Origin: an uncultured Pseudomonadota bacterium
GTDB taxonomy: Bacteria > Myxococcota_A > UBA796 > GCA-2862545
Direction: 5' to 3'
Length of the DNA: 64,000 nt
Assembly (NCBI GenBank): GCA_903861005.1
Contig: CAIOSP010000200.1
Location: 1-64,000, forward strand
Position 1 is the first letter of the stretch, and every line of letters starts with the position of its first letter. Shown one piece after another: positions 48,484-58,200 of this stretch. The position numbers and the translations under genes are program-made. Below the pieces are notes generated by a model that was not told the DNA's origin, made no database searches, and worked only from the letters and a program-made list of their open reading frames with translations.

Positions 48484-49332
48484 TCACTTCGGGGAGGGCG
48501 CCCTGCGCGCGAACTCGCCGTGGATCTCAGCAAAAGCACGCACGGACGGCACAGTCCAGGCTGGAGTCAGACCCGCGCTGGCTCCCAAGCGCACCGAGAG
48601 GCCCTGGTCCGCGTCGATCCAGCCAGAGAGGATCGCTTCGGCGGGGGTGGTCTCCGGGCGGATGGCGTGCAGCAGCGCCACCGCCCCCTGCCACTCGAGC
48701 GTCATGCCGCCGTGTCGGGTGAAGCGGACACCCGTCGCCTGCCGCCAGACGAAGGAGGTGTCGAGCGCGAGATCGCCCACCTGGACGGCCGGTGTGTCCC
48801 GAACGCCGGCCTCTGCGGCGATCCAGACGGGGCCCGCGACGCCGTCCATCAACGCGCGCGCCTCCCAGGCGGCGGCGCCCCAGCCGAGGCCAAGCCGGTG
48901 CCCGCCGAGCGGCGCGGAGGCGTAGACCAACAAGCCGAAGCCCGGGCGCTTGAACGACGCAGAGAACGGCACGAATTGCAGGTCGACGCCGAGGTCACCC
49001 GGCGCCGTCCGCACGCCCTGGAACCGGTCGCTGGTGGCCAGGTAGCCAGCGAAGGTCGCGCCGAGACGCAGCGGACCAAAGCCCACGCCGCCCGACACCG
49101 ACACCACGCCATCATCGCGGATGACCGCGGCCTTGTCGTGTTCGTCCTTGAGCACGAACGGCGCATGCGCCCAGCCAACGTGCACGGTCGCTGCACCAAG
49201 CCGCTGGGTGTTGGAGTCCGAGGTGACGACGCCGCGCTCCGAGAACACCGCCGGAGCGAGGCCATCCGAGGAGACCGCGGGCGCCGCGTCCTGGCCGAAG
49301 GCCACCCCGAGCGCGACCACCCAGACGATCAT
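48484..49332 (-). CDS. Predicted outer-membrane beta-barrel protein
   Basis: This 282-aa precursor has a signal peptide (cleavage after VAFGQ). The mature part alternates hydrophobic and polar residues in short strands, with Gly turns ('GVGFGPLRLGATFAGYL', 'FGLLVYASAPLGGHRLGLGW'). The 'SVSGGVGFG' and 'DQGLSVRLGASAG' segments are typical of small barrels. It ends '...EFARRAPSPK', without a C-terminal aromatic BamA signal, so assembly is uncertain. The ATG overlaps the stop of the LysM/FecR gene (ATGA), making it the last gene of the kinase operon. It may be the outer-membrane component of that unit. Confidence 0.72.
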   Translation of the reverse strand: MIVWVVALGVAFGQDAAPAVSSDGLAPAVFSERGVVTSDSNTQRLGAATVHVGWAHAPFVLKDEHDKAAVIRDDGVVSVSGGVGFGPLRLGATFAGYLATSDRFQGVRTAPGDLGVDLQFVPFSASFKRPGFGLLVYASAPLGGHRLGLGWGAAAWEARALMDGVAGPVWIAAEAGVRDTPAVQVGDLALDTSFVWRQATGVRFTRHGGMTLEWQGAVALLHAIRPETTPAEAILSGWIDADQGLSVRLGASAGLTPAWTVPSVRAFAEIHGEFARRAPSPK

Positions 49333-50450
49333 GGCGTCACCACCGGCGCGAAGAAGGTGCGGCCGGGCGACGGCTTGCCCTCGAACCCGAGCGCGTCGAC
49401 CGCCGACATCTGCCAGGTCCACGCGCCTCGACCGGACGGCAGGACGAGCGTTTCATCCGGGTAGAGCGGCGCGAAGGTAGGGGTGAGCAGCTCAGTCGCG
49501 AACACCGGGAGCTCGGGCGTCTCGGCCAGCGCGATGCGCAGGATGTAGCTGCCCGCCCGCAGCGCCGCCTGCGCGCGGAAGTCGGGCACCAAGAGCGGCG
49601 CACGATCCGCGGGAGAGAGGAGCTTGGGCGTGGTGGGGAGCGGGTGCGGGTCGCTGGGCGCCTCACCGAACGTGGTGCGTCCGCCGTAGCCCTCGGGGAG
49701 CACGACCTCGTGGCCCTGGGCCGTGGTGCTGACCTCGGCGCCGATCGCCTCGGTGCGGGCGGCGGTGGGCTCGACCGCGACGCGGAAGCCGCCGCGATGC
49801 CCGACCGTGACCGCGCTGCCCGCGGGATCGGTGCCGCCGGTGCGCACGATCACGTCGCCGGGGACAGGCTGGTGCTCGACCACGATGGCGCCCTGGGTCA
49901 GGTCGACGAGCGAGCTGCGCGCGTCCCGGACCCGGTCCACGGCGGTGATGATCACGCAGGTACCGGGCAAGAGCGTGATCACGTCCCGCGCGCCAGCGTC
50001 CGGCGGCACGGACAGCTCGACCCGCGCGAAGCCATCCACCGAGTCGCCGTCGACGCCGGCCGCGCCCGTGCAGATCTCGTCGGCGAGGTTGAGCACCGTG
50101 TGGTCGTCAACGTGCGTGCGAACCACGACGTCGTGCAACTCCTGGCTGAGGGTGCCGTCGGCGTGGGTCACGGTCACGGCTTCGCGGCGGGTCGCGCGCA
50201 GGAAGAGCGGGCCGTGGTGGTCCAGCACGCGCGACGGCTCGCAGCCGGATCCGGGCACGGACTCGGGCAGTCGGAGCACGGCGCCCACCACCGGCTGCGC
50301 GCCCAGCGCGATGTCGTTCTCCGCGCGGATCGCGTCGGCGAGCTTGGGGTCGCCGACCATGCGCGCGATCGACTCCGCGGTCTCCCCGGCCAGCACCACG
50401 TGCGTGCCTGAAGCCTGCGCGACAGACAGAGCCAGCCACAAGGCGATCAT
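49329..50450 (-). CDS. LysM/FecR-like exported peptidoglycan-associated protein
   Basis: This 373-aa precursor has a short signal peptide (cleavage after AQASG). A LysM motif begins directly after it ('THVVLAGETAESIARMVGDP', then 'IRAENDIALG'), which should bind peptidoglycan. Residues about 95-215 resemble a FecR domain ('GPLFLRATRREAVTVTHADG', 'LTQGAIVVEHQPVPGDVIVRTG'). The last third is an Ig-like or fibronectin-like region ending 'FEGKPSPGRTFF'. LysM-FecR proteins are often encoded beside OmpA-like proteins and signalling enzymes. Both its ends overlap neighbouring genes, so it is translated with them. Confidence 0.82.
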   Translation of the reverse strand: MIALWLALSVAQASGTHVVLAGETAESIARMVGDPKLADAIRAENDIALGAQPVVGAVLRLPESVPGSGCEPSRVLDHHGPLFLRATRREAVTVTHADGTLSQELHDVVVRTHVDDHTVLNLADEICTGAAGVDGDSVDGFARVELSVPPDAGARDVITLLPGTCVIITAVDRVRDARSSLVDLTQGAIVVEHQPVPGDVIVRTGGTDPAGSAVTVGHRGGFRVAVEPTAARTEAIGAEVSTTAQGHEVVLPEGYGGRTTFGEAPSDPHPLPTTPKLLSPADRAPLLVPDFRAQAALRAGSYILRIALAETPELPVFATELLTPTFAPLYPDETLVLPSGRGAWTWQMSAVDALGFEGKPSPGRTFFAPVVTP

Positions 50451-51499
50451 CGCGACACCTCAGGCGGGAGTTCGGCGACGACGGTGGCGCTGCGCTGGGC
50501 CTCCAACGAGGCGCCCGGGTTGGGCTCGACCACGTCGGTCGACAGGATCCGGCTGGCGGGCACGCCAGCGCGAATCAGCACGTCCCGCACCGCGTTCGCG
50601 CGCGCGAGACCCAAGGCGCGGTTCTGGTCCAGGTCGCCCTCGGTCGAGTACGAGCCATGCACGCGCCAGACGACCCCGGGCGCGCGCGCGAGCGCGCTGA
50701 TCTGCGCCGCCTCAGCGTCAGACAGGGACGCGTCCGCCAGCGCGAACACCACCCAGTAGGCGGGCGGCAGGCGGCGCGCCCAGACCGTGTGACCGGCGAA
50801 GCGAAGCTCGTCGGGTGCGATCTGCCCTGAGCCCGGCGTGACCCAGACGGCTCCTTCAGGGGGCGGCGGGGGCGAGTCCGGTGCGACGACCGCGGTGGGC
50901 GCCGTACCCTCGGGCGCGCGCGTCTCGGCGACGTCGTCCCCAAAGTAGGCCCGCGCCTCGGCAGGTCCGACGAACCGGCACTCTGGGAACGGCAGCCAGG
51001 GCTGGACGGCCTTCTCCTCGACGACGGGGGCCGAGTCCCGCCGACGAGTCCACACCACGCCCAAGGCGAAGCGCGTCGCGGCGAGCGTGGTGGTGGTCGG
51101 CAGCCAGCCGCCCTCGAAGCGGAGTGCGACGTTGTGCGCGACGCGAACGTCGAGCGCGGACGAGAGTTCGAACTGCCCGCGTGCAGGCGTAGGCAGCACC
51201 TGAATGCCCGCGCCCGCCGCGAAGGAGAGCGCCGCGCGGGTCGACTCGTCGCGGGGCGTGGCGAACACGCGGAGCCGCGGCCACATCGCCACACGCGGAC
51301 CGCTCGCGGGCGTCCACGCGCCCTCCAGCACCGCCTCCATCCACAGCGGGCCGAAGGCGTTCACGCCGAACGCCGCGCCGCCCCCGATGCCGGGCGCGCC
51401 CTGGTCGTCGGAGAAGGTGGAGAGCGCGACGACGTGCCCCTCCACCAGCGGGGAAGAACCCGCCAACGCCGTCGCGACCCATAGGGCGGTCAGCATCAC
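50447..51499 (-). CDS. OmpA-family protein with C-terminal peptidoglycan-binding domain
   Basis: This 350-aa precursor has a signal peptide (cleavage near ALAGS). Residues about 25-155 look like an eight-stranded-type beta-barrel ('GIGGGAAFGVNAFGPLWM', 'LRFEGGWLPTTTTL'). After a Pro-rich linker (about 205-220) comes an OmpA/MotB-type domain with 'VHGSYSTEGDLDQNRALG', 'ARANAVRDVLIRAGV' and 'QRSATVV'. That domain binds peptidoglycan meso-DAP in known OmpA proteins; here the consensus Asp is replaced by Glu-Gly-Asp in the loop, and the C-terminal Arg is kept. The start may be GTG at 51499 or the adjacent ATG. It lies four bases after the FHA gene. Confidence 0.85.
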   Translation of the reverse strand: MMLTALWVATALAGSSPLVEGHVVALSTFSDDQGAPGIGGGAAFGVNAFGPLWMEAVLEGAWTPASGPRVAMWPRLRVFATPRDESTRAALSFAAGAGIQVLPTPARGQFELSSALDVRVAHNVALRFEGGWLPTTTTLAATRFALGVVWTRRRDSAPVVEEKAVQPWLPFPECRFVGPAEARAYFGDDVAETRAPEGTAPTAVVAPDSPPPPPEGAVWVTPGSGQIAPDELRFAGHTVWARRLPPAYWVVFALADASLSDAEAAQISALARAPGVVWRVHGSYSTEGDLDQNRALGLARANAVRDVLIRAGVPASRILSTDVVEPNPGASLEAQRSATVVAELPPEVSR

Positions 51500-51503
51500 C
51501 GGC

Positions 51504-52466
51504 TCACTTGATCACGATGTCGGCGAGCGCGAGCCGGATGGCTTTCCGCCGCTTCTCGATGAACCAGGGGTCGAACCCGGCCTCTTTCAGTTCTTTGCGC
51601 AGGCGGTGGACCAGCACGTGCAGGCTGTTTGCGTCCGACGACGAGCGCCGTCCCCAGACGTCCCGCGTGATGTCCTCGTCCGAGCACCACGCATCGTCTT
51701 CGTCGCCCGTGCTGCGCGAGTCCACCGCGCGCTTGGCGAGCGCGTAGAGCAGCACGGCCCGGTTCTCGGCGTCGATCACGTGGCGCGCGCCCGTCTGCGG
51801 GTCGTCGATGATCGCTTCGGCGCCCGCGACGCCATCGAGCGTCAGCGTGAGACGGAACGGCAGGCGTGCGTCGCCGATCGTGGCGCCGAGGCCCACGGAC
51901 CCGTCGTCCGCCACCACGCGGAAGCGGCGACCGCCGCAGGTGAACACCTCGCCCAGCTCAAGCGGGCCGTCGTCGTCGACGGTGGACCGCCAGATGTCGC
52001 CGTCTGGGTGCAGGAAGAGCGCGACGCCGCCGCCCGCGTCCGCCACCCGGAGGTCGGCGTGGTCGCTGTCGCCCAGGAAGAAGCGATCCGCGAAGAAGGG
52101 ATGCCGGACCATCGTCTCCACGTCTTCGACGGCGAAGGCGTCCTGGCGGGTCGGCACGACAGGCGCGGCCGCGCGGACGACGAACTCGATCGTGGACCCG
52201 AGGCGGACCCGGGCGCCATCGTTCAGTACGGCGGGCGCCGAGACGCGCGCGCGGTCGATCCACGTACCGTTGCGGCTGCCGAGGTCGCGGATCCAAGCGC
52301 AGCCGTTCTCGAACCAGACCGAGGCGTGGTGGGAGGACACGCTCGGGTCGGCGATCACGTGATCACAGTCACGCGCTCGTCCGAGCGTTCGTGGGCGTCC
52401 AAGCACGGCGACCGCCGGGCGTTCTATGCCGTTGCGCACCATGTGCAGCCACATCCCACCGCTCAC
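51504..52466 (-). CDS. FHA-domain regulator with C-terminal winged helix
   Basis: This 320-aa cytoplasmic protein starts at GTG. Residues 20-95 are a well-kept FHA domain: GR at 29-30, Ser-Ser-His at 44-46 and Asn-Gly at 66-67, the phosphothreonine-binding set. A middle region (100-235) repeats a weaker FHA-like beta fold. Residues about 245-320 form an OmpR/PhoB-type winged helix ('LHVLVHRLRKELKEAGFDPW' then 'IEKRRKAIRL'). It therefore looks like a DNA-binding protein controlled by phosphothreonine binding. The Ser/Thr kinase gene lies 44 bases upstream on the same strand. The topology is the reverse of EmbR (winged helix first, FHA last). Confidence 0.86.
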   Translation of the reverse strand: MSGGMWLHMVRNGIERPAVAVLGRPRTLGRARDCDHVIADPSVSSHHASVWFENGCAWIRDLGSRNGTWIDRARVSAPAVLNDGARVRLGSTIEFVVRAAAPVVPTRQDAFAVEDVETMVRHPFFADRFFLGDSDHADLRVADAGGGVALFLHPDGDIWRSTVDDDGPLELGEVFTCGGRRFRVVADDGSVGLGATIGDARLPFRLTLTLDGVAGAEAIIDDPQTGARHVIDAENRAVLLYALAKRAVDSRSTGDEDDAWCSDEDITRDVWGRRSSSDANSLHVLVHRLRKELKEAGFDPWFIEKRRKAIRLALADIVIK

Positions 52467-52510
52467 TCACACCCCCAACCCTGCTCTACCACGGATACTG
52501 ACGCGGGGGA

Positions 52511-54088
52511 TCACTCCGCCCGGCGGTACTGGATGTCTCCCATGTTCACAGCGCCACCTCCGCAACACGTCACCGCCAGCGTACCGTCTGGCATGAGCTT
52601 GAGGTCGAGGCGGACGGTCGTCTCCGCGTACTCAAATTCGACCGCGCCCTGCCGTACGGCGGGATCCCAGGTGCCCTTCGAGAGCGTCCCCTCGCCCACC
52701 ACCGTGTTCGCGCGGCTGTAGGCGAACGTTCCGCGCAGCGCTGACGGATCGCCTCCGACCACGAACGTCGAGGGCCCAACCGACCCACCGTTGCGGCGCC
52801 ACTTGCCGGCGATCGGCGCCATCTCGGGCGAGACGGGGGCCGGGGCGACAGTCTTGAGCCTCGCGCGCGGCGCGTCCGGGGAGACGGCGGCCACAGCCTC
52901 ACGCGAGGCCTGCGCGAGCGACGCGACCGGAGCCACCGCCGAACCGGAGGGCGGAACCGCCGAGGGATCGGCCGCGGGAGCGACAGACGTCGCCGACCCG
53001 ACCGCCGCCACAGGCGCGCTCGCAGGGGGCCCGCTGGCCGGGCCCGTCAGCCACACCATCAGCACGACCATCAGCACGCTGCCCAGCGCCAAGGCGACCC
53101 GAGCCGGGGTGAGCGCCCGACCACCGTCGTCGTCGAACTCCGGGAGCCCGTCCGCCGTCTTTGTCTGTCCAAACGTCGGAAATGCGCCGTCTCGGCTGTC
53201 GGCGCTGCGCCCCGGAAACCGGGTGAGCGCGTCGGCGACCTCGTCCGGTGGCAGCGACGCGACGCACGCTTCCAGCGCGTCGGCCATGGCGTCGGCGGTT
53301 TGGTAGCGGTCGTCCGGGTCCTTCTTCATCGCCTTGAAGAGCACCGACCGAAGCGGCTCGTCCACCAGCTGCCAGCGCACGTCCTCGATCGGCTCGGCGA
53401 ACAGGTGATCGGGGCGCTCCCCCGTCAGCATCTGGTAGAGCGCGGCGCCAGTCGCGTACAGATCCGACGTGGGCCGCGCGTCCTTGGCCGACAGGCGCTG
53501 CTCCGGCGGCGCGTAAGCCACGGACCCCATCATCACGCCCGTCCGTGTGAAGCGATCCACCTCGTCGGAGAACATGGCGATGCCAAAGTCCGCGAGCACC
53601 GCGTTGCCCTCGCGGTCGAGCAGGATGTTCGACGGCTTGATGTCGCGATGGACGACGTTGACCCGATGCGCGACGCCCAACGCCGACAGCACCTGCACTA
53701 CCCAACGCACCGCACGACGCGGCGGCAGACGCCCCAGCGCGTGCATCTGCTGCTCGACGTTGCCCCCCTCGACGTACTCCATGACGATGAAGGCGCGCTG
53801 TTCCTTGGTCGCCGGGTCCTCGAACTCGTGGAACGCGTAGACCTGCACCAGGTTGGGATGTCGCGCGGACTCCAGCCTGGACAGCGCGCGCAGCTCGGCG
53901 GTCAAGCGCTTGACCCGGACCGCGGTCGCCCGTCCTCCGCCGCGCACCACCTTGATGGCGACGAGCTTCTGCTTGACGGAGTCGTAGCCCCGCCAGACCA
54001 CCGCCATGCCGCCCTCACCGAGCAGGTAGTCCAGGCGGTAGCGTGCGTCGTGCGGGCCCAGCGAGGCCTTGGCGTCCACGCCGTCCAT
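52511..54088 (-). CDS. Membrane Ser/Thr protein kinase (PknB/Hanks type)
   Basis: This 525-aa protein has an N-terminal kinase domain (about residues 17-275). The Gly loop is 'LLGEGGMAVVWRG', the ATP Lys is K46, the catalytic HRD is 'VHRDIKPSN' with Asp149, DFG is at 167-169, and APE-like 'YAPPEQRLS' follows. All catalytic residues are intact, so it should be active. A single transmembrane helix (about 331-348) leads to a Pro/Ala linker and a small outside domain (about 430-520: 'AGKWRRNGGSV...GTFAYSRANTVVGEGTL'). That domain has no known PASTA repeats. It is first in the five-gene unit and divergent from 54358. Its likely partner is the FHA regulator downstream. Confidence 0.93.
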   Translation of the reverse strand: MDGVDAKASLGPHDARYRLDYLLGEGGMAVVWRGYDSVKQKLVAIKVVRGGGRATAVRVKRLTAELRALSRLESARHPNLVQVYAFHEFEDPATKEQRAFIVMEYVEGGNVEQQMHALGRLPPRRAVRWVVQVLSALGVAHRVNVVHRDIKPSNILLDREGNAVLADFGIAMFSDEVDRFTRTGVMMGSVAYAPPEQRLSAKDARPTSDLYATGAALYQMLTGERPDHLFAEPIEDVRWQLVDEPLRSVLFKAMKKDPDDRYQTADAMADALEACVASLPPDEVADALTRFPGRSADSRDGAFPTFGQTKTADGLPEFDDDGGRALTPARVALALGSVLMVVLMVWLTGPASGPPASAPVAAVGSATSVAPAADPSAVPPSGSAVAPVASLAQASREAVAAVSPDAPRARLKTVAPAPVSPEMAPIAGKWRRNGGSVGPSTFVVGGDPSALRGTFAYSRANTVVGEGTLSKGTWDPAVRQGAVEFEYAETTVRLDLKLMPDGTLAVTCCGGGAVNMGDIQYRRAE

Positions 54089-54357
54089 GCGCGCCCCCCC
54101 GGTCCGCTAACGGGCCGGTCCAGCGCGCGCATTCGCGGCGGGGTGGTCGAAGGCTCCAGGGTGCGTCCCGAGTCCATCTTGCGCGCCACACAAGGGGGAG
54201 AGCAGCGCGCGTGTTCCTCGAGGGCGTCCCTTCCGGGCACCGCGCAGCCATCCGACCGTCCGGCCGTAGGGGTTTGCGTCCCGGATACCCATGTCATGGC
54301 CCAGCGTCTGACATGCTGCACTTACGCGGAGGTGACACCCCGAGATAGGCGCCGCGC
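54089..54357. other. Divergent intergenic region upstream of the kinase operon
   Basis: 269 bases lie between the kinase start and the HExxH/Cys-cluster start. It contains a TAGCGG-like box 15 bases before the kinase ATG (minus strand). I see no coding sequence, repeat or RNA gene. Both promoters must lie here. Confidence 0.5.
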
Positions 54358-55362
54358 ATGACACGCACCATCCCTGGCACGTATGGCGACCCGCTCGACG
54401 CGATCTGGCTGCGCTGCGCCGCGCGCCTGGGCTGGAAGGTCGCCCGCGCCCCGGACGTGTACGCGTCGTGGGATGGCCGCGACACGTTGACCCTGTGCCC
54501 GCCGTCCGACTTCGATCCCGACGACAGCGTGGCGCAGATGATCCTGCACGAGATCGTGCACGCGCTGGTGCAGGGGCCGAGCATGCTGCGCGAGGTCGAC
54601 TGGGGCCTGGACAACACTGAGGACGCGCTCGCCGCCGTGCAGGAGCACGCGTGTCACCGCCTGCAGGCCGCGCTCACCGATCTGTACGGCCTGCGGGACA
54701 TGCTCGCGCCGACCACGACCTGGCGACCTTACTGGGACGCGCTACCGCCTGACGCGCTCGGCGCGGGCGACGACCCCGCCATCCCACTCGCGCGCGCCGC
54801 GTGGCCCGAGGCGGTGCGCGGCAAGTGGTCCGGCCCGCTGCTCGACGCGCTCCGCGCGACCGCCGACATGGCGGATCTGGTCCGCGACGCGGCCGAACCA
54901 GACTCGCTGTGGTCCCGCACCCGCCCCCGGACCGTGGTTGGCATCGCGGCCCACCCGAGCGCCGGCACCTGCGACACCTGCGCGTGGAGCACCTCGCAGA
55001 CGACCCACTGCCGCGCCCACGATCGTGCCATCGCGCCGGCGTCGCCCGCGTGTGTGCGCTGGGAGCGAAAGCTCGATCACAGCGACTGCGCCGCGTGCGG
55101 TGCGTGCTGCCGCGAGGGCTTCCACGCCGTGTCCGTCGAGCCCGAGGACGCGGTCAACCTCGTCCGCCCCGACCTCATCTCCGCCGACGGCGAGTTCCGC
55201 TACCTGGACCGCCCGGGCGGCCGCTGCGTGGGCCTGAACCCCGGCGGTCCGCCATGGCGCTGCGCGATCTACGCCATCCGCCCGCACGCGTGCCGCGACT
55301 TTGAGGTGGGCGCCGACGCATGCCTGCAGGCGCGTCGACGCGTGGGTCTGTCGCGGCTGTGA
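54358..55362 (+). CDS. HExxH domain fused to a YkgJ-type Cys-cluster domain
   Basis: This 334-aa cytoplasmic protein has two parts. In residues 1-150, 'MILHEIVHALVQG' is an HExxH zinc site, followed by a helix 'AVQEHACHRL' that could supply the third ligand. The middle (about 195-235) has a Cys quartet: C-x2-C, then C, then C. Residues 240-330 match the UPF0153/YkgJ family ('CAACGACCREGFHAVSVE', 'GRCVGL', 'WRCAIYAIRPHACRDFEVG'), whose Cys cluster binds Fe or Zn. The HExxH part could be a protease, but HExxH alone does not prove this. I know no characterised protein with this combination. It stands alone between divergent and convergent neighbours. Confidence 0.8.
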   Translation: MTRTIPGTYGDPLDAIWLRCAARLGWKVARAPDVYASWDGRDTLTLCPPSDFDPDDSVAQMILHEIVHALVQGPSMLREVDWGLDNTEDALAAVQEHACHRLQAALTDLYGLRDMLAPTTTWRPYWDALPPDALGAGDDPAIPLARAAWPEAVRGKWSGPLLDALRATADMADLVRDAAEPDSLWSRTRPRTVVGIAAHPSAGTCDTCAWSTSQTTHCRAHDRAIAPASPACVRWERKLDHSDCAACGACCREGFHAVSVEPEDAVNLVRPDLISADGEFRYLDRPGGRCVGLNPGGPPWRCAIYAIRPHACRDFEVGADACLQARRRVGLSRL

Positions 55363-55369
55363 GCGACGC

Positions 55370-57370
55370 CTAGAAGCGCTGGCGCCACGCGGGCGAGAGC
55401 TCGCAGGCGGCGTCATCGACCGCGACGAACTTGAAGACCTTGTGCGCGAGGTAGGACGGCGACGTGATGGGCACGGAAACGTGCCCCGTACCGTCGGCCG
55501 TGCCGTGTCCGAGCGTGTAGCGCGGCGTGAACGGCAGCGACGCGGAGGCGCAGCCAGGCACCGGCGACGTCCCTCGACCCGAGCCCGCGTAGAACGTGAT
55601 CGTTTGCCCAGGGGCGGCGCCGTCCGCGGTGAGCGTCAGAGGGTTGCCCGGCGTGACCGCGCTCACCGCCGTGATGTGCAGCTCCGGCTGGCAGGTGGAC
55701 GAGCAGCCGTCGCCCGACACCAGATCCCCGTCGTCGCACCGCTCGCCTGCGTCCAGCACGCCATCGCCGCAGCGCTCGCAGCCGGTGGCCGGCGTGAGCC
55801 GGACCGCGTCCGCGACGACCACCGCCCCCGCCGTCGCCCAGCGGGAGAGGTCGACCTGATTCCAGCCCGGCGTGAAGCCCCAGGTGCCGAGCGTGTTCCA
55901 CTGGGAGCCGCGCGCGGTCTGATCGACCACCGCGCGGCCGACCTCAACGCCGCCCGCGTCGTACGCGATCCACGGCGCCGAGGTCGATCGATCCGCCGCG
56001 GTTGTCCACCACGCGTCGACCTTGTAGCAGACCGGCGAGGCCGCCAAGAACTGGAAGCGCGCCGGGTCGGACACGGGCGAGGTGGGCGCCACCCAGTAGC
56101 CCGTGTTCCAGTAGCCGGAGACGTTGGCGCTCGACGTCCAGTTGGCGGAGGTGTCGACGCGGGCAACGCTCGGGTCGTTCGCCGCGTTGTTGCTGTCGAT
56201 CACCAGCTGCCCCGCGGTGCCGCCGCTCGTCGCCTCGCCGCACGCGGCGTGCACGCGGTCAAGGTAGTCGACCCACGGCCAGCCCGCGCCGGGGTCCGTG
56301 CGGTTGTAGGGCTGGAGCGTGGCGTGCGCGACGATGTGGTAGCTGTCGCGCGGGATCTGGTGCGTGGTCGTGATGTCGCAGACGAGCTGCGCGGACACGT
56401 CCAGCATGTGGTCGTCCCAGCTGGTCTGCGACGAGAAGCCGGCGTGCTCGATGCCCACCGAGAAGTGGTTCACGTTCCAGCCGTTGAGGCTGCAGTCCGT
56501 GTTGCCGTTGAGCGCGCAGTCGTAGGTGGCGCCGACGTGCCAGGCGCGGTCGGCCTCATGGACCAGCTGCGAGATCTCCGAGCCCGTCTCGCTGATCACG
56601 TAGTGTGCGCTCACGCCGGACGCGGCGTCGGTGAGCCAGCCCCAGCACCCGGAGTAGGCGCCCTCGCAGTCGTGGATGATGACCATGCTGACGCCGCCGG
56701 CGCCCGCGCTGCGGGTGTTGAAGTTGGGCGACGGACGCCACACCGCGTACGGGTGCTCCGCGCCCAGCACCGACGCCGACACCGTCGGTCGAGGCCACGC
56801 GGGCACCACGTCCATGCCTCCGACGAAGCCACCTTCGACGACGAAGCCGCGCTGAAGGTTGCCGAACACGCCGTCCCACACGTACGACGCGGTCGCGTTG
56901 GCGTCCGGAATGCCGGCGTAGCGCGCGACGAGCGGCGCCCACGCGCCCAGGTCTGCGCGGTCGAGCGCGACCTCGTCGGCCCACGACGACAGCAGCGCCG
57001 CAGCGGCCATCACGTTGGACGCGCGATCCGTGCGGACGATTGCCTCATCCAAGCCGGCCAGGCGCGCGCCGTCCGTCAGGTGTTCGCCGCGCAGGCCCAT
57101 CACGCCGAACGCGGGCGCCCAACCTTCGATCTCCTCCTGACCCGACACCATCTTGCCGCCGGTCTCGGTCTGCGCGATCGCCTGCAGCAGGTCAGCGGGG
57201 ACCTCCCAGGTCTGCGCTGCGTCCGCGTACACATCGGGCGACGCGCCGGGAGCTTCACCCGCGGCGAGCGGCGCCGAGGGGTCCGGGTCCACGGACACGT
57301 CCGAGGTCGCGCAGGCGACGAGGAACAGCGTCGCGAAAGCCGAGGCAGAGCGGACAAGGCGTGCGGTCAC
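55370..57370 (-). CDS. Modular N-acetylmuramoyl-L-alanine amidase lipoprotein
   Basis: This 666-aa precursor starts at GTG and has lipobox LVAC. Residues 30-170 look like a lysozyme-like or transglycosylase-like helical domain ('AAQTWEVPADLLQAIAQTET', 'PAFGVMGLRGEHL'). Next is an amidase_2 (PGRP-like) domain: 'SMVIIHDCEGAY', 'SGVSAHYVIS', 'SVGIEHAGF' and 'HIVAHATLQPYNRTDPG' hold the likely zinc ligands. A golvesin/xanthan-lyase-like beta domain (about 455-560: 'WNTGYW', 'FTPGWNQVDL') follows, then one DUF4215 Cys repeat ('CGDGVLDAGERCDDGD'), then a C-terminal beta domain. It would cleave peptidoglycan stem peptides from outside the cell or in the periplasm. Confidence 0.85.
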   Translation of the reverse strand: MTARLVRSASAFATLFLVACATSDVSVDPDPSAPLAAGEAPGASPDVYADAAQTWEVPADLLQAIAQTETGGKMVSGQEEIEGWAPAFGVMGLRGEHLTDGARLAGLDEAIVRTDRASNVMAAAALLSSWADEVALDRADLGAWAPLVARYAGIPDANATASYVWDGVFGNLQRGFVVEGGFVGGMDVVPAWPRPTVSASVLGAEHPYAVWRPSPNFNTRSAGAGGVSMVIIHDCEGAYSGCWGWLTDAASGVSAHYVISETGSEISQLVHEADRAWHVGATYDCALNGNTDCSLNGWNVNHFSVGIEHAGFSSQTSWDDHMLDVSAQLVCDITTTHQIPRDSYHIVAHATLQPYNRTDPGAGWPWVDYLDRVHAACGEATSGGTAGQLVIDSNNAANDPSVARVDTSANWTSSANVSGYWNTGYWVAPTSPVSDPARFQFLAASPVCYKVDAWWTTAADRSTSAPWIAYDAGGVEVGRAVVDQTARGSQWNTLGTWGFTPGWNQVDLSRWATAGAVVVADAVRLTPATGCERCGDGVLDAGERCDDGDLVSGDGCSSTCQPELHITAVSAVTPGNPLTLTADGAAPGQTITFYAGSGRGTSPVPGCASASLPFTPRYTLGHGTADGTGHVSVPITSPSYLAHKVFKFVAVDDAACELSPAWRQRF

Positions 57371-57465
57371 GAGGCACCCGTGGGGGAACGCCACCCGACT
57401 AACGCCCCCCACGCCCCCGTTCCGCCTCCAAGGCGGAAATCCAGCGTGTCGGGTCCACCACCGAC

Positions 57466-58200
57466 TCAGTCGAACCACACCCGCCAGCCCACCGACTTGG
57501 GCGCGCGCTTGGCCATATCCGCGAAGCCTCGCTCACCCGGGAACGGCACCTTGTGCTCGAGGATGACCGGCACCCGCTTGTTGACCACGTCGCCGCGGAT
57601 CCCCCACTTGTTGGGGGACGGCAGAATGCCGACCAACCGCGCGGACTCCTCGGGCGTGAGCGCCTTGGCGGACCTGCCGAACCAGTGCCGGGCGCCCGCC
57701 TCCATGCCGAAGGTGTTCGGTCCGGTCTCCGCGACGTTGAGGTAGACCTCGAGGATGCGCGCCTTGGGCACCAGCGCCTCCATCAGCACGGTGTACCAGG
57801 CCTCCAGGCCCTTGCGGACCCAGGTGCGCCCCTGCCAGAGGAACACGTTGCGCGCGACCTGCTGGGAGATGGTCGACGCGCCCTTCACCTTCTTGGACTC
57901 GGCGTTGTGCTCGACCGCCGCCTCGATGGCGCCCAGGTCAAAGCCGTGATGGTGCCAGAACCAGCCGTCCTCGGCCGCCACCGCCGCGCGCGGGACCTCT
58001 CGACCCAGCGCGTCCATGTCGAGCCAGCGCTGCTGCGGCATCGCGCCACGCTCCCACCCGCTCTCGACCATCGTCCAGGTCATTGGCGGGTTCACCCAGC
58101 GCAACGCGACCACCTGAAGCACGCTCAAGAGCAGCGCCGCGACCACCAGTCGCGTGCTCCACACCACGAGCCGAACGGCGATCTTGCGCAGCGTGGCCAC
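57466..58200 (-). CDS. mtgA: Monofunctional peptidoglycan glycosyltransferase MtgA
   Basis: This 244-aa protein starts at GTG with GAGGGAG upstream. A transmembrane helix (residues about 9-32) precedes a GT51 domain. The catalytic Glu77 is in 'VAAEDGWFWHHHGFD', and further family motifs are 'KGASTISQQVARNVFLWQGR', 'RKGLEAWYTVLMEAL' and 'ILEVYLNVAETG'. There is no transpeptidase domain, so it only polymerises glycan strands from lipid II. The length is normal for MtgA. It is divergent from the PHP lipoprotein gene with an inverted repeat between them, and is close to the amidase gene that acts on the same polymer. Confidence 0.93.
   Translation of the reverse strand: MATLRKIAVRLVVWSTRLVVAALLLSVLQVVALRWVNPPMTWTMVESGWERGAMPQQRWLDMDALGREVPRAAVAAEDGWFWHHHGFDLGAIEAAVEHNAESKKVKGASTISQQVARNVFLWQGRTWVRKGLEAWYTVLMEALVPKARILEVYLNVAETGPNTFGMEAGARHWFGRSAKALTPEESARLVGILPSPNKWGIRGDVVNKRVPVILEHKVPFPGERGFADMAKRAPKSVGWRVWFD

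Follow-up and report, generated by a model that had tools for sequence, protein, structure and literature searches.

Envelope or kinase signals reach transcription by several known routes. The BiofilmReg operon of Burkholderiales encodes a response regulator, a LysM/FecR protein, a CHASE2 histidine kinase and a DUF4136 protein, and interruption of the regulator gene gave a biofilm defect (PMC5192318). In Campylobacterota, CHASE2 cyclases are clustered with FecR outer-membrane proteins (PMC9239204), and in Sinorhizobium meliloti NsrA forms a pathway with the CHASE2 cyclases CyaK, CyaD1 and CyaD2, for which a plant protein has been reported as the candidate signal (PMC13001267, PMC7529298). Hanks kinases have been reviewed (PMC6213207), and one acting on a sigma factor has been described (PMC13147305). 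Here we analyse five minus-strand genes at positions 48484-54088 of a stretch of 64,000 nucleotides (the window; GenBank assembly GCA_903861005.1, contig CAIOSP010000200.1) from an uncultured bacterium of the Myxococcota_A. They encode a Hanks-type Ser/Thr kinase, a regulator with FHA and winged-helix domains, an OmpA-like protein, a LysM/FecR-like protein and a predicted outer-membrane beta-barrel. This module is a real, conserved and apparently undescribed variant of a known sensor type, whose mechanism we infer. A survey of part of the open-licence literature found no description of a Hanks kinase and FHA regulator encoded with LysM/FecR and OmpA genes, which is weak evidence of novelty.

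The locus resembles BiofilmReg in that a LysM/FecR periplasmic protein, a membrane kinase and a winged-helix regulator are encoded in one operon, but BiofilmReg has a CHASE2 histidine kinase and a receiver-domain regulator rather than a Ser/Thr kinase, and the likeness of the two LysM/FecR proteins is one of description (PMC5192318). Neither OmpA nor FHA is mentioned in the text of that paper. In the NsrA pathway, too, an outer-membrane barrel relays a signal from outside to a receptor enzyme of the inner membrane and from there to transcription; with cAMP and Clr in place of phosphothreonine and an FHA regulator, it is likened to the module as an analogue (PMC13001267, PMC7529298). PknH-EmbR of Mycobacterium tuberculosis also combines a Ser/Thr kinase and an FHA/OmpR-type winged-helix regulator in one operon, but EmbR is built as winged helix-BTAD-FHA, whereas the regulator in the window has FHA first, the winged helix last and no BTAD match (PMC9239209). 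PASTA kinases (PknB, PrkC) are likewise membrane Ser/Thr kinases with an ectodomain outside the inner membrane; the kinase in the window differs in having no PASTA match. Within the phylum, loci with a CHASE2 cyclase encode a homologous LysM/FecR protein adjoining an OmpA or barrel-OmpA protein, but their output is a CHASE2 nucleotide cyclase and the OmpA domains read at them, many of which are barrel-fused, keep the motif GHTD. To our knowledge, an envelope cassette beside a kinase-FHA pair is new relative to PknH-EmbR.

When 93 genomes were searched with the LysM/FecR protein, 24 of them, its own included, proved to have relatives. Strong matches (E below 1e-70) occurred in 24 of the 63 genomes of the window's order, and three more had borderline matches only. 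In a phylum sample of 377 genomes, 78 had matches at E 1e-8 or better, namely those 24 and 54 others, among which the best E was 4.8e-31. Stop-to-stop frames from 26 loci (the window and 25 others) in the 24 genomes, which represent six families of the order, were scanned with profiles for the kinase ectodomain and for each of the five families; the loci are related by descent and hence not independent trials. The kinase, with the same ectodomain, lies upstream of the OmpA gene on the same strand in all 24 testable loci, its position being cut by contig ends in the other two (L033, L048). The OmpA gene precedes the LysM/FecR gene in 25/25 loci with a profile match to both, and in L048 the contig holds no more of an OmpA gene than its end. 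An FHA-winged-helix gene is present in 17/26 loci. It stands ahead of the kinase gene, between the kinase and OmpA genes (in the genus of the window only), after the LysM gene or on the opposite strand. Nine loci lack it: L033, L043, L048, L050 and L055, which are short or cut, and L032, L038, L040 and L052, which are neither. A barrel gene follows the LysM gene in 13/26 loci, and all five families are found together in six (window, L031, L041, L045, L047, L054). The five-gene order that the original prediction looked for in relatives is therefore not kept exactly outside the genus (2/26 loci, both of that genus), but the order kinase-OmpA-LysM is constant and the FHA and barrel genes are the movable parts. 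At L047:9557-13543 the kinase, OmpA and LysM genes are split over frames, through decay or assembly errors.

In the window, open reading frame coordinates confirmed the predicted spacers of 44 bases between kinase and FHA genes (52467-52510) and 4 bases between FHA and OmpA genes (51500-51503), as well as the ATGA overlaps of the OmpA and LysM genes (50447-50450) and of the LysM and barrel genes (49329-49332). By our own gene calls, overlaps of 1 or 4 bases were found in 23/24 OmpA-LysM, 11/13 LysM-barrel and 10/21 kinase-OmpA pairs, the last count scoring as non-overlapping the two loci of the window's genus in which the FHA gene lies in between. Such frequent overlaps suggest translational coupling.

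Since kinase, OmpA and LysM/FecR genes recur together in 24/24 testable loci, though the genome of the window has only 43 kinase-domain matches, the gene set goes beyond chance. We therefore regard it as highly improbable that unrelated envelope and signalling genes are ordinary chance neighbours here: the exact five-gene order is confined to one genus, as chance would allow, but the module recurs with overlapping starts and stops across six families and its outer flanks are common mainly within genera. Chance adjacency was rejected on that recurrence of the kinase, OmpA and LysM/FecR genes. The exceptions among the outer flanking genes are an MscS-like channel, a DUF481 protein and a third cluster. 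Co-divergence was examined by mirror-tree correlations of nine gene pairs, repeated after leaving out eight close relatives, with 2000 shuffles. Strong correlations (r 0.73-0.92) were obtained for all nine pairs when every sequence was included, and in the thinned set kinase and LysM/FecR divergence still correlate with r 0.60, a value reached by 6/2000 shuffles. The row L032:10855-11784, an unrelated protein that is CysD-like by eye, was dropped from the barrel alignment before profile building.

By its catalytic motifs the kinase appears to be intact, in agreement with the original prediction. Its Pkinase match has 132.7 bits (Pfam), and HRD, K151, N154, DFG and the activation-loop Thr181 are invariant in 20 aligned kinases, with K46 in 90% or more; one predicted transmembrane helix precedes the C-terminal domain. 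No PASTA repeats were matched by Pfam, and the NCBIfam PASTA-kinase model covers the kinase domain alone (229.9 bits, cut-off 450); membership of the PASTA kinases was thus rejected, as the ectodomain has no PASTA match. An AlphaFold2 model of the ectodomain is an eight-stranded barrel (predicted local distance difference test, pLDDT, 84.7). Foldseek gave no match to this model at E below 0.001, its best rows including fatty-acid-binding proteins, a luciferase, lipocalins and avidin. In VIA-align the model superposed on avidins and streptavidins with Z 10.4-11.5 and a root mean square deviation of 2.1-2.9 over 88-97 residues, on a designed barrel with Z 12.4 and on the Cap15 receptor with Z 11.4. 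An avidin-like fold class of the modelled domain is plausible. Only G and W residues are near-invariant in it. The domain tracks the module: at E<=1e-6 the genome of the window has one such ectodomain, and there are 46 matches in 34 of the 63 genomes of the order, but 23 of the 25 strongest lie within module loci. The two strongest outside are near contig ends (G007:C285 and G015:C227, the latter with an OmpA match cut by the contig end). Several of the weaker matches adjoin FHA-winged-helix genes in the absence of envelope genes.

The regulator was recognised by Pfam through FHA (68.1 bits) and Trans_reg_C (33.5 bits, cut-off 26.2), both above cut-off. The residues that we take to be phosphothreonine-binding in FHA domains, G29, R30, S44, H47 and N66, are kept in 16/16 members, so that the proposed FHA protein with a winged helix holds in both its parts. 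There is a suggestion of a second, degenerate FHA-like domain in the middle of the protein (hhalign probability 40%, E 3e-4). VIA-align with the regulator model listed FHA chains, with the remaining domains barely covered. The closest solved protein by sequence was EmbR, through its FHA domain (E 7.5e-17), but membership of the EmbR family was rejected, the FHA domain being N-terminal, the winged helix C-terminal and BTAD without a match in Pfam. The FHA-winged-helix profile (E<=1e-20) matched in 45/63 genomes of the order, 24/24 with and 21/39 without a strong LysM/FecR gene (Fisher p 3e-5, indicative since the genomes are related), and at a full-length threshold of 230 bits in 24/24 and 19/39. 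Against named genomes, seven matches among the best 80 of 453 relatives reach E 9e-40 or better over most of the query; their titles include Myxococcota and Deltaproteobacteria bacterium, and the titles Rhodobacterales and Bifidobacterium breve look mislabelled. L066 and L101, among the same best 80, are weaker matches that likewise span most of its length. At L202:6890-10973 and L204:3378-7343, FHA-winged-helix genes adjoin large kinases, one with AAA/TPR repeats, so that this regulator family pairs with several kinase types.

The OmpA-like protein probably departs from its expected role as a peptidoglycan binder. Its OmpA match in the window (24.6 bits) is just under the Pfam cut-off of 27.2, and 23/23 family members match OmpA at E<=0.05. 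Of the Asp and Arg that presumably bind diaminopimelate in OmpA/Pal domains, the Arg is kept in 23/23 members and the Asp is absent from all of them (20 Ser, 3 Ala); in the three with Ala (L042, L044, L049) the alignment is gapped, with an acidic residue two places on. In contrast, GHTD is kept in 14/14 hand-picked comparison OmpA domains, 11 at distant LysM/FecR loci and three in separate barrel-OmpA genes near kinase-type loci. Peptidoglycan binding as the default function of the module domain was rejected on the missing Asp, and judged by these residues a standard peptidoglycan-binding role is improbable, which makes LysM the more likely wall contact. The LysM region is absent in three members (L046, L050, L052). 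Neither the LysM/FecR protein of the window nor the barrel gave any Pfam or NCBIfam match at E<=0.1; the name LysM/FecR-like is supported by the family rather than by that protein alone, as 11/23 members match LysM and 7/23 match FecR at E<=0.05 (Pfam) and LysM structures come up in a search with the family profile (E 4e-10). The fifth gene is predicted to encode an outer-membrane beta-barrel from its pattern by eye and its homology to the N-terminal part of barrel-OmpA fusions. Its reading frame was listed with 312 amino acids and has 282 from an internal ATG at 49332, so the predicted barrel is not very small, unlike in the original prediction.

Outside the kinase-type loci the same cassette has other partners. 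Twenty weaker, distant LysM/FecR loci were read, one of them (L174, in genome G048) in the window's order. A CHASE2 domain is adjacent in 11/20 of these and on 0/26 kinase-type contigs, some of which are short, and the genome of the window has no CHASE2 match at E<=0.001. From this difference in CHASE2 partners, a known envelope-sensor cassette appears to have been rewired to a Ser/Thr kinase and FHA regulator. The LysM/FecR family profile matches proteins adjoining CHASE2 proteins at E 9e-31 to 1e-21, in loci within the phylum. Eight likely output proteins scanned at distant loci were six CHASE2 cyclases, one CHASE2 histidine kinase (L173) and one HAMP cyclase without CHASE2 (L186); the LysM-FecR-OmpA sets beside cyclases that the original prediction mentioned do therefore occur in this phylum. 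G048 is the only kinase-type genome that also holds a CHASE2-cyclase locus. A Hanks kinase is near in at least 3/20 distant loci (L173, L186, L190); the window's order is thus not alone in having kinases beside FecR proteins. At L173:4450-10489, genes for OmpA, LysM/FecR, a CHASE2 histidine kinase and a Ser/Thr kinase-receiver fusion lie in a row, a possible mixed phosphorelay, and at L186:2860-9453 and L190:1320-8989 a barrel-OmpA protein, a HAMP cyclase, a Hanks kinase and a FecR protein are encoded together, with an FHA-sigma54 activator on the opposite strand at L190.

We consider it fairly probable that the five genes form one trans-envelope signalling line, a cassette rewired to a Ser/Thr kinase and FHA regulator; what the sequences show is the gene set, its linkage, the conserved catalytic and phosphothreonine-binding residues, the domain composition and the absence of a CHASE2 partner, and the contacts, locations, phosphorylation, DNA binding, signal and direction of rewiring are what we infer. 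The barrel and OmpA-like proteins would be placed in the outer membrane and the LysM/FecR protein bound to the wall, where its FecR-like domain would relay the state of outer membrane or wall to the kinase ectodomain. The avidin-like ectodomain of the inner-membrane kinase could then release or dimerise the kinase, leading to autophosphorylation on threonine in the activation loop. The regulator would dock on phosphothreonine through its FHA domain and be phosphorylated or released, and its winged helix would alter transcription. In evolution, a LysM/FecR-barrel sensor cassette, often tied to a cyclase or histidine kinase with CHASE2, would have been rewired to the Ser/Thr kinase and FHA regulator. 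Because of the conserved unit, the kinase motifs, the FHA residues, the winged helix and the LysM/FecR-OmpA sets beside cyclases in the phylum, an envelope sensor with transcriptional output is the best reading, and this much of the predicted cell-wall stress sensor with direct transcriptional output stands; that the signal is cell-wall stress is conjecture. Whether the module also represents a Ser/Thr output class of LysM/FecR sensor, so far seen in one order, is evenly balanced in our judgement. It would be the counterpart of the two-component type, with an avidin-like Hanks kinase reading the FecR protein, an FHA-winged-helix protein leading to DNA and the Asp-less OmpA-like protein now a signalling part.

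Several observations weigh against a dedicated signalling line. FHA-winged-helix genes also exist apart from the module, some adjoining other kinases, and 22/46 ectodomain matches lie outside module loci, all but two of them weaker; the kinase-FHA pairing is therefore not exclusive. The position of the FHA gene is variable, and at 4/21 uncut loci (L032, L038, L040, L052) the gene is missing and the regulator would have to act from elsewhere. Half of the loci lack a barrel gene after the LysM gene, and the FecR homology of the window's own protein is below Pfam detection. The kinase-type locus L047 has broken frames, and its genome, G048, holds one locus of each type, the kinase-type copy being the broken one. 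In the thinned mirror-tree test the ectodomain-LysM correlation was weak (64/2000 shuffles) and the other seven pairs were reached by 258 to 865/2000; as most pairs thus lose their correlation, the test gives modest support. Furthermore, a FecR-domain protein of S. meliloti was reported not to be required for signal perception (PMC5498481), and EmbR, which is the best analogue of the regulator, could be phosphorylated in vitro, yet no phosphorylated form was found in vivo under normal growth (PMC9239209).

Some of these points would fit a kinase-FHA pair that is a general transcription switch, the OmpA, LysM and barrel genes being its main target or an adjacent wall-anchoring structure and no sensor. 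The variable position of the FHA gene is in line with this, as are L205, L207 and L208, where kinases with weaker ectodomain matches adjoin FHA-winged-helix genes and no OmpA or LysM gene is directly adjacent (the contig of L205 is 5.7 kb). We find it unlikely, because it is the kinase (24/24 testable loci) and not the regulator (17/21 uncut loci) that constantly accompanies the envelope genes, the strongest ectodomain matches track the envelope genes (23/25), and cousin loci encode a receptor cyclase or histidine kinase beside the LysM/FecR gene. Less probable still is a kinase ectodomain that binds a small ligand of its own in an avidin-like pocket, for example a wall fragment, which the envelope proteins merely deliver or concentrate. 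The predicted eight-stranded barrel of avidin-like or fatty-acid-binding-protein-like topology would suit such binding, and some kinases with weaker ectodomain matches have no adjacent envelope genes, but the score of a designed barrel is no lower than that of avidin (Z 12.4 vs 11.5), so that the fold shows no ligand, and G and W residues hold the only near-invariant positions. The preferred trans-envelope line has consequences of its own. For most bacterial Ser/Thr kinases we know of neither the signal nor the transcriptional target; as the genes for candidate sensor parts, the kinase and the DNA-binding reader lie together here, the complete route could be reconstituted in a laboratory host. 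If the reading is true, cyclic nucleotides, histidine phosphorylation and threonine phosphorylation are outputs between which a single envelope-sensor cassette can be rewired.

Table 1. Features of the kinase-OmpA-LysM/FecR locus (positions in the window)
Feature	Position	Strand	Remarks
Transmembrane Hanks-type Ser/Thr kinase gene	52511-54088	minus	525 amino acids; Pkinase
Kinase domain	53285-54034	minus	Pfam
Single predicted transmembrane helix	53042-53098	minus	kinase amino acids 331-349; hydropathy
Kinase ectodomain, C-terminal, predicted eight-stranded avidin-like beta-barrel	52514-52825	minus	AlphaFold2; 20 aligned kinases
Regulator gene: FHA, possible degenerate FHA-like, OmpR-type winged helix	51504-52466	minus	320 amino acids; GTG start
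FHA domain	52197-52388	minus	G29, R30, S44, H47, N66 invariant in 16/16
Predicted Trans_reg_C winged-helix DNA-binding segment	51546-51689	minus	33.5 bits; helices and wing in AlphaFold2 model
OmpA-like envelope protein gene	50447-51499	minus	N terminus signal-like; N-terminal region looks beta-rich by eye; OmpA-like domain at the C terminus
OmpA-like domain	50540-50692	minus	Ser for diaminopimelate-binding Asp, motif GSYSTEG; alignment to Pal 4g4v
LysM/FecR-like periplasmic protein gene	49329-50450	minus	373 amino acids
Predicted outer-membrane beta-barrel gene	48484-49332	minus	282 amino acids from ATG at 49332
Intergenic region upstream of kinase gene	54089-54357		shared with divergent gene at 54358; likely promoter site

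The intergenic region 54089-54357 is conserved in a genome of the same genus. A scan for sigma-70-like promoters and terminators gave zero sites of both kinds, which is uninformative in this G+C-rich DNA. An N-acetylmuramoyl-L-alanine amidase with a golvesin C-terminal domain is encoded near the operon (55370-57478) and is kept in the same-genus genome. In some genera an MscS-like channel (L045, L046, L035) and a DUF481 protein (L045, L046, L054) are repeatedly encoded close to the module, for example at L045:14683-16421 (Pfam for L045 only).

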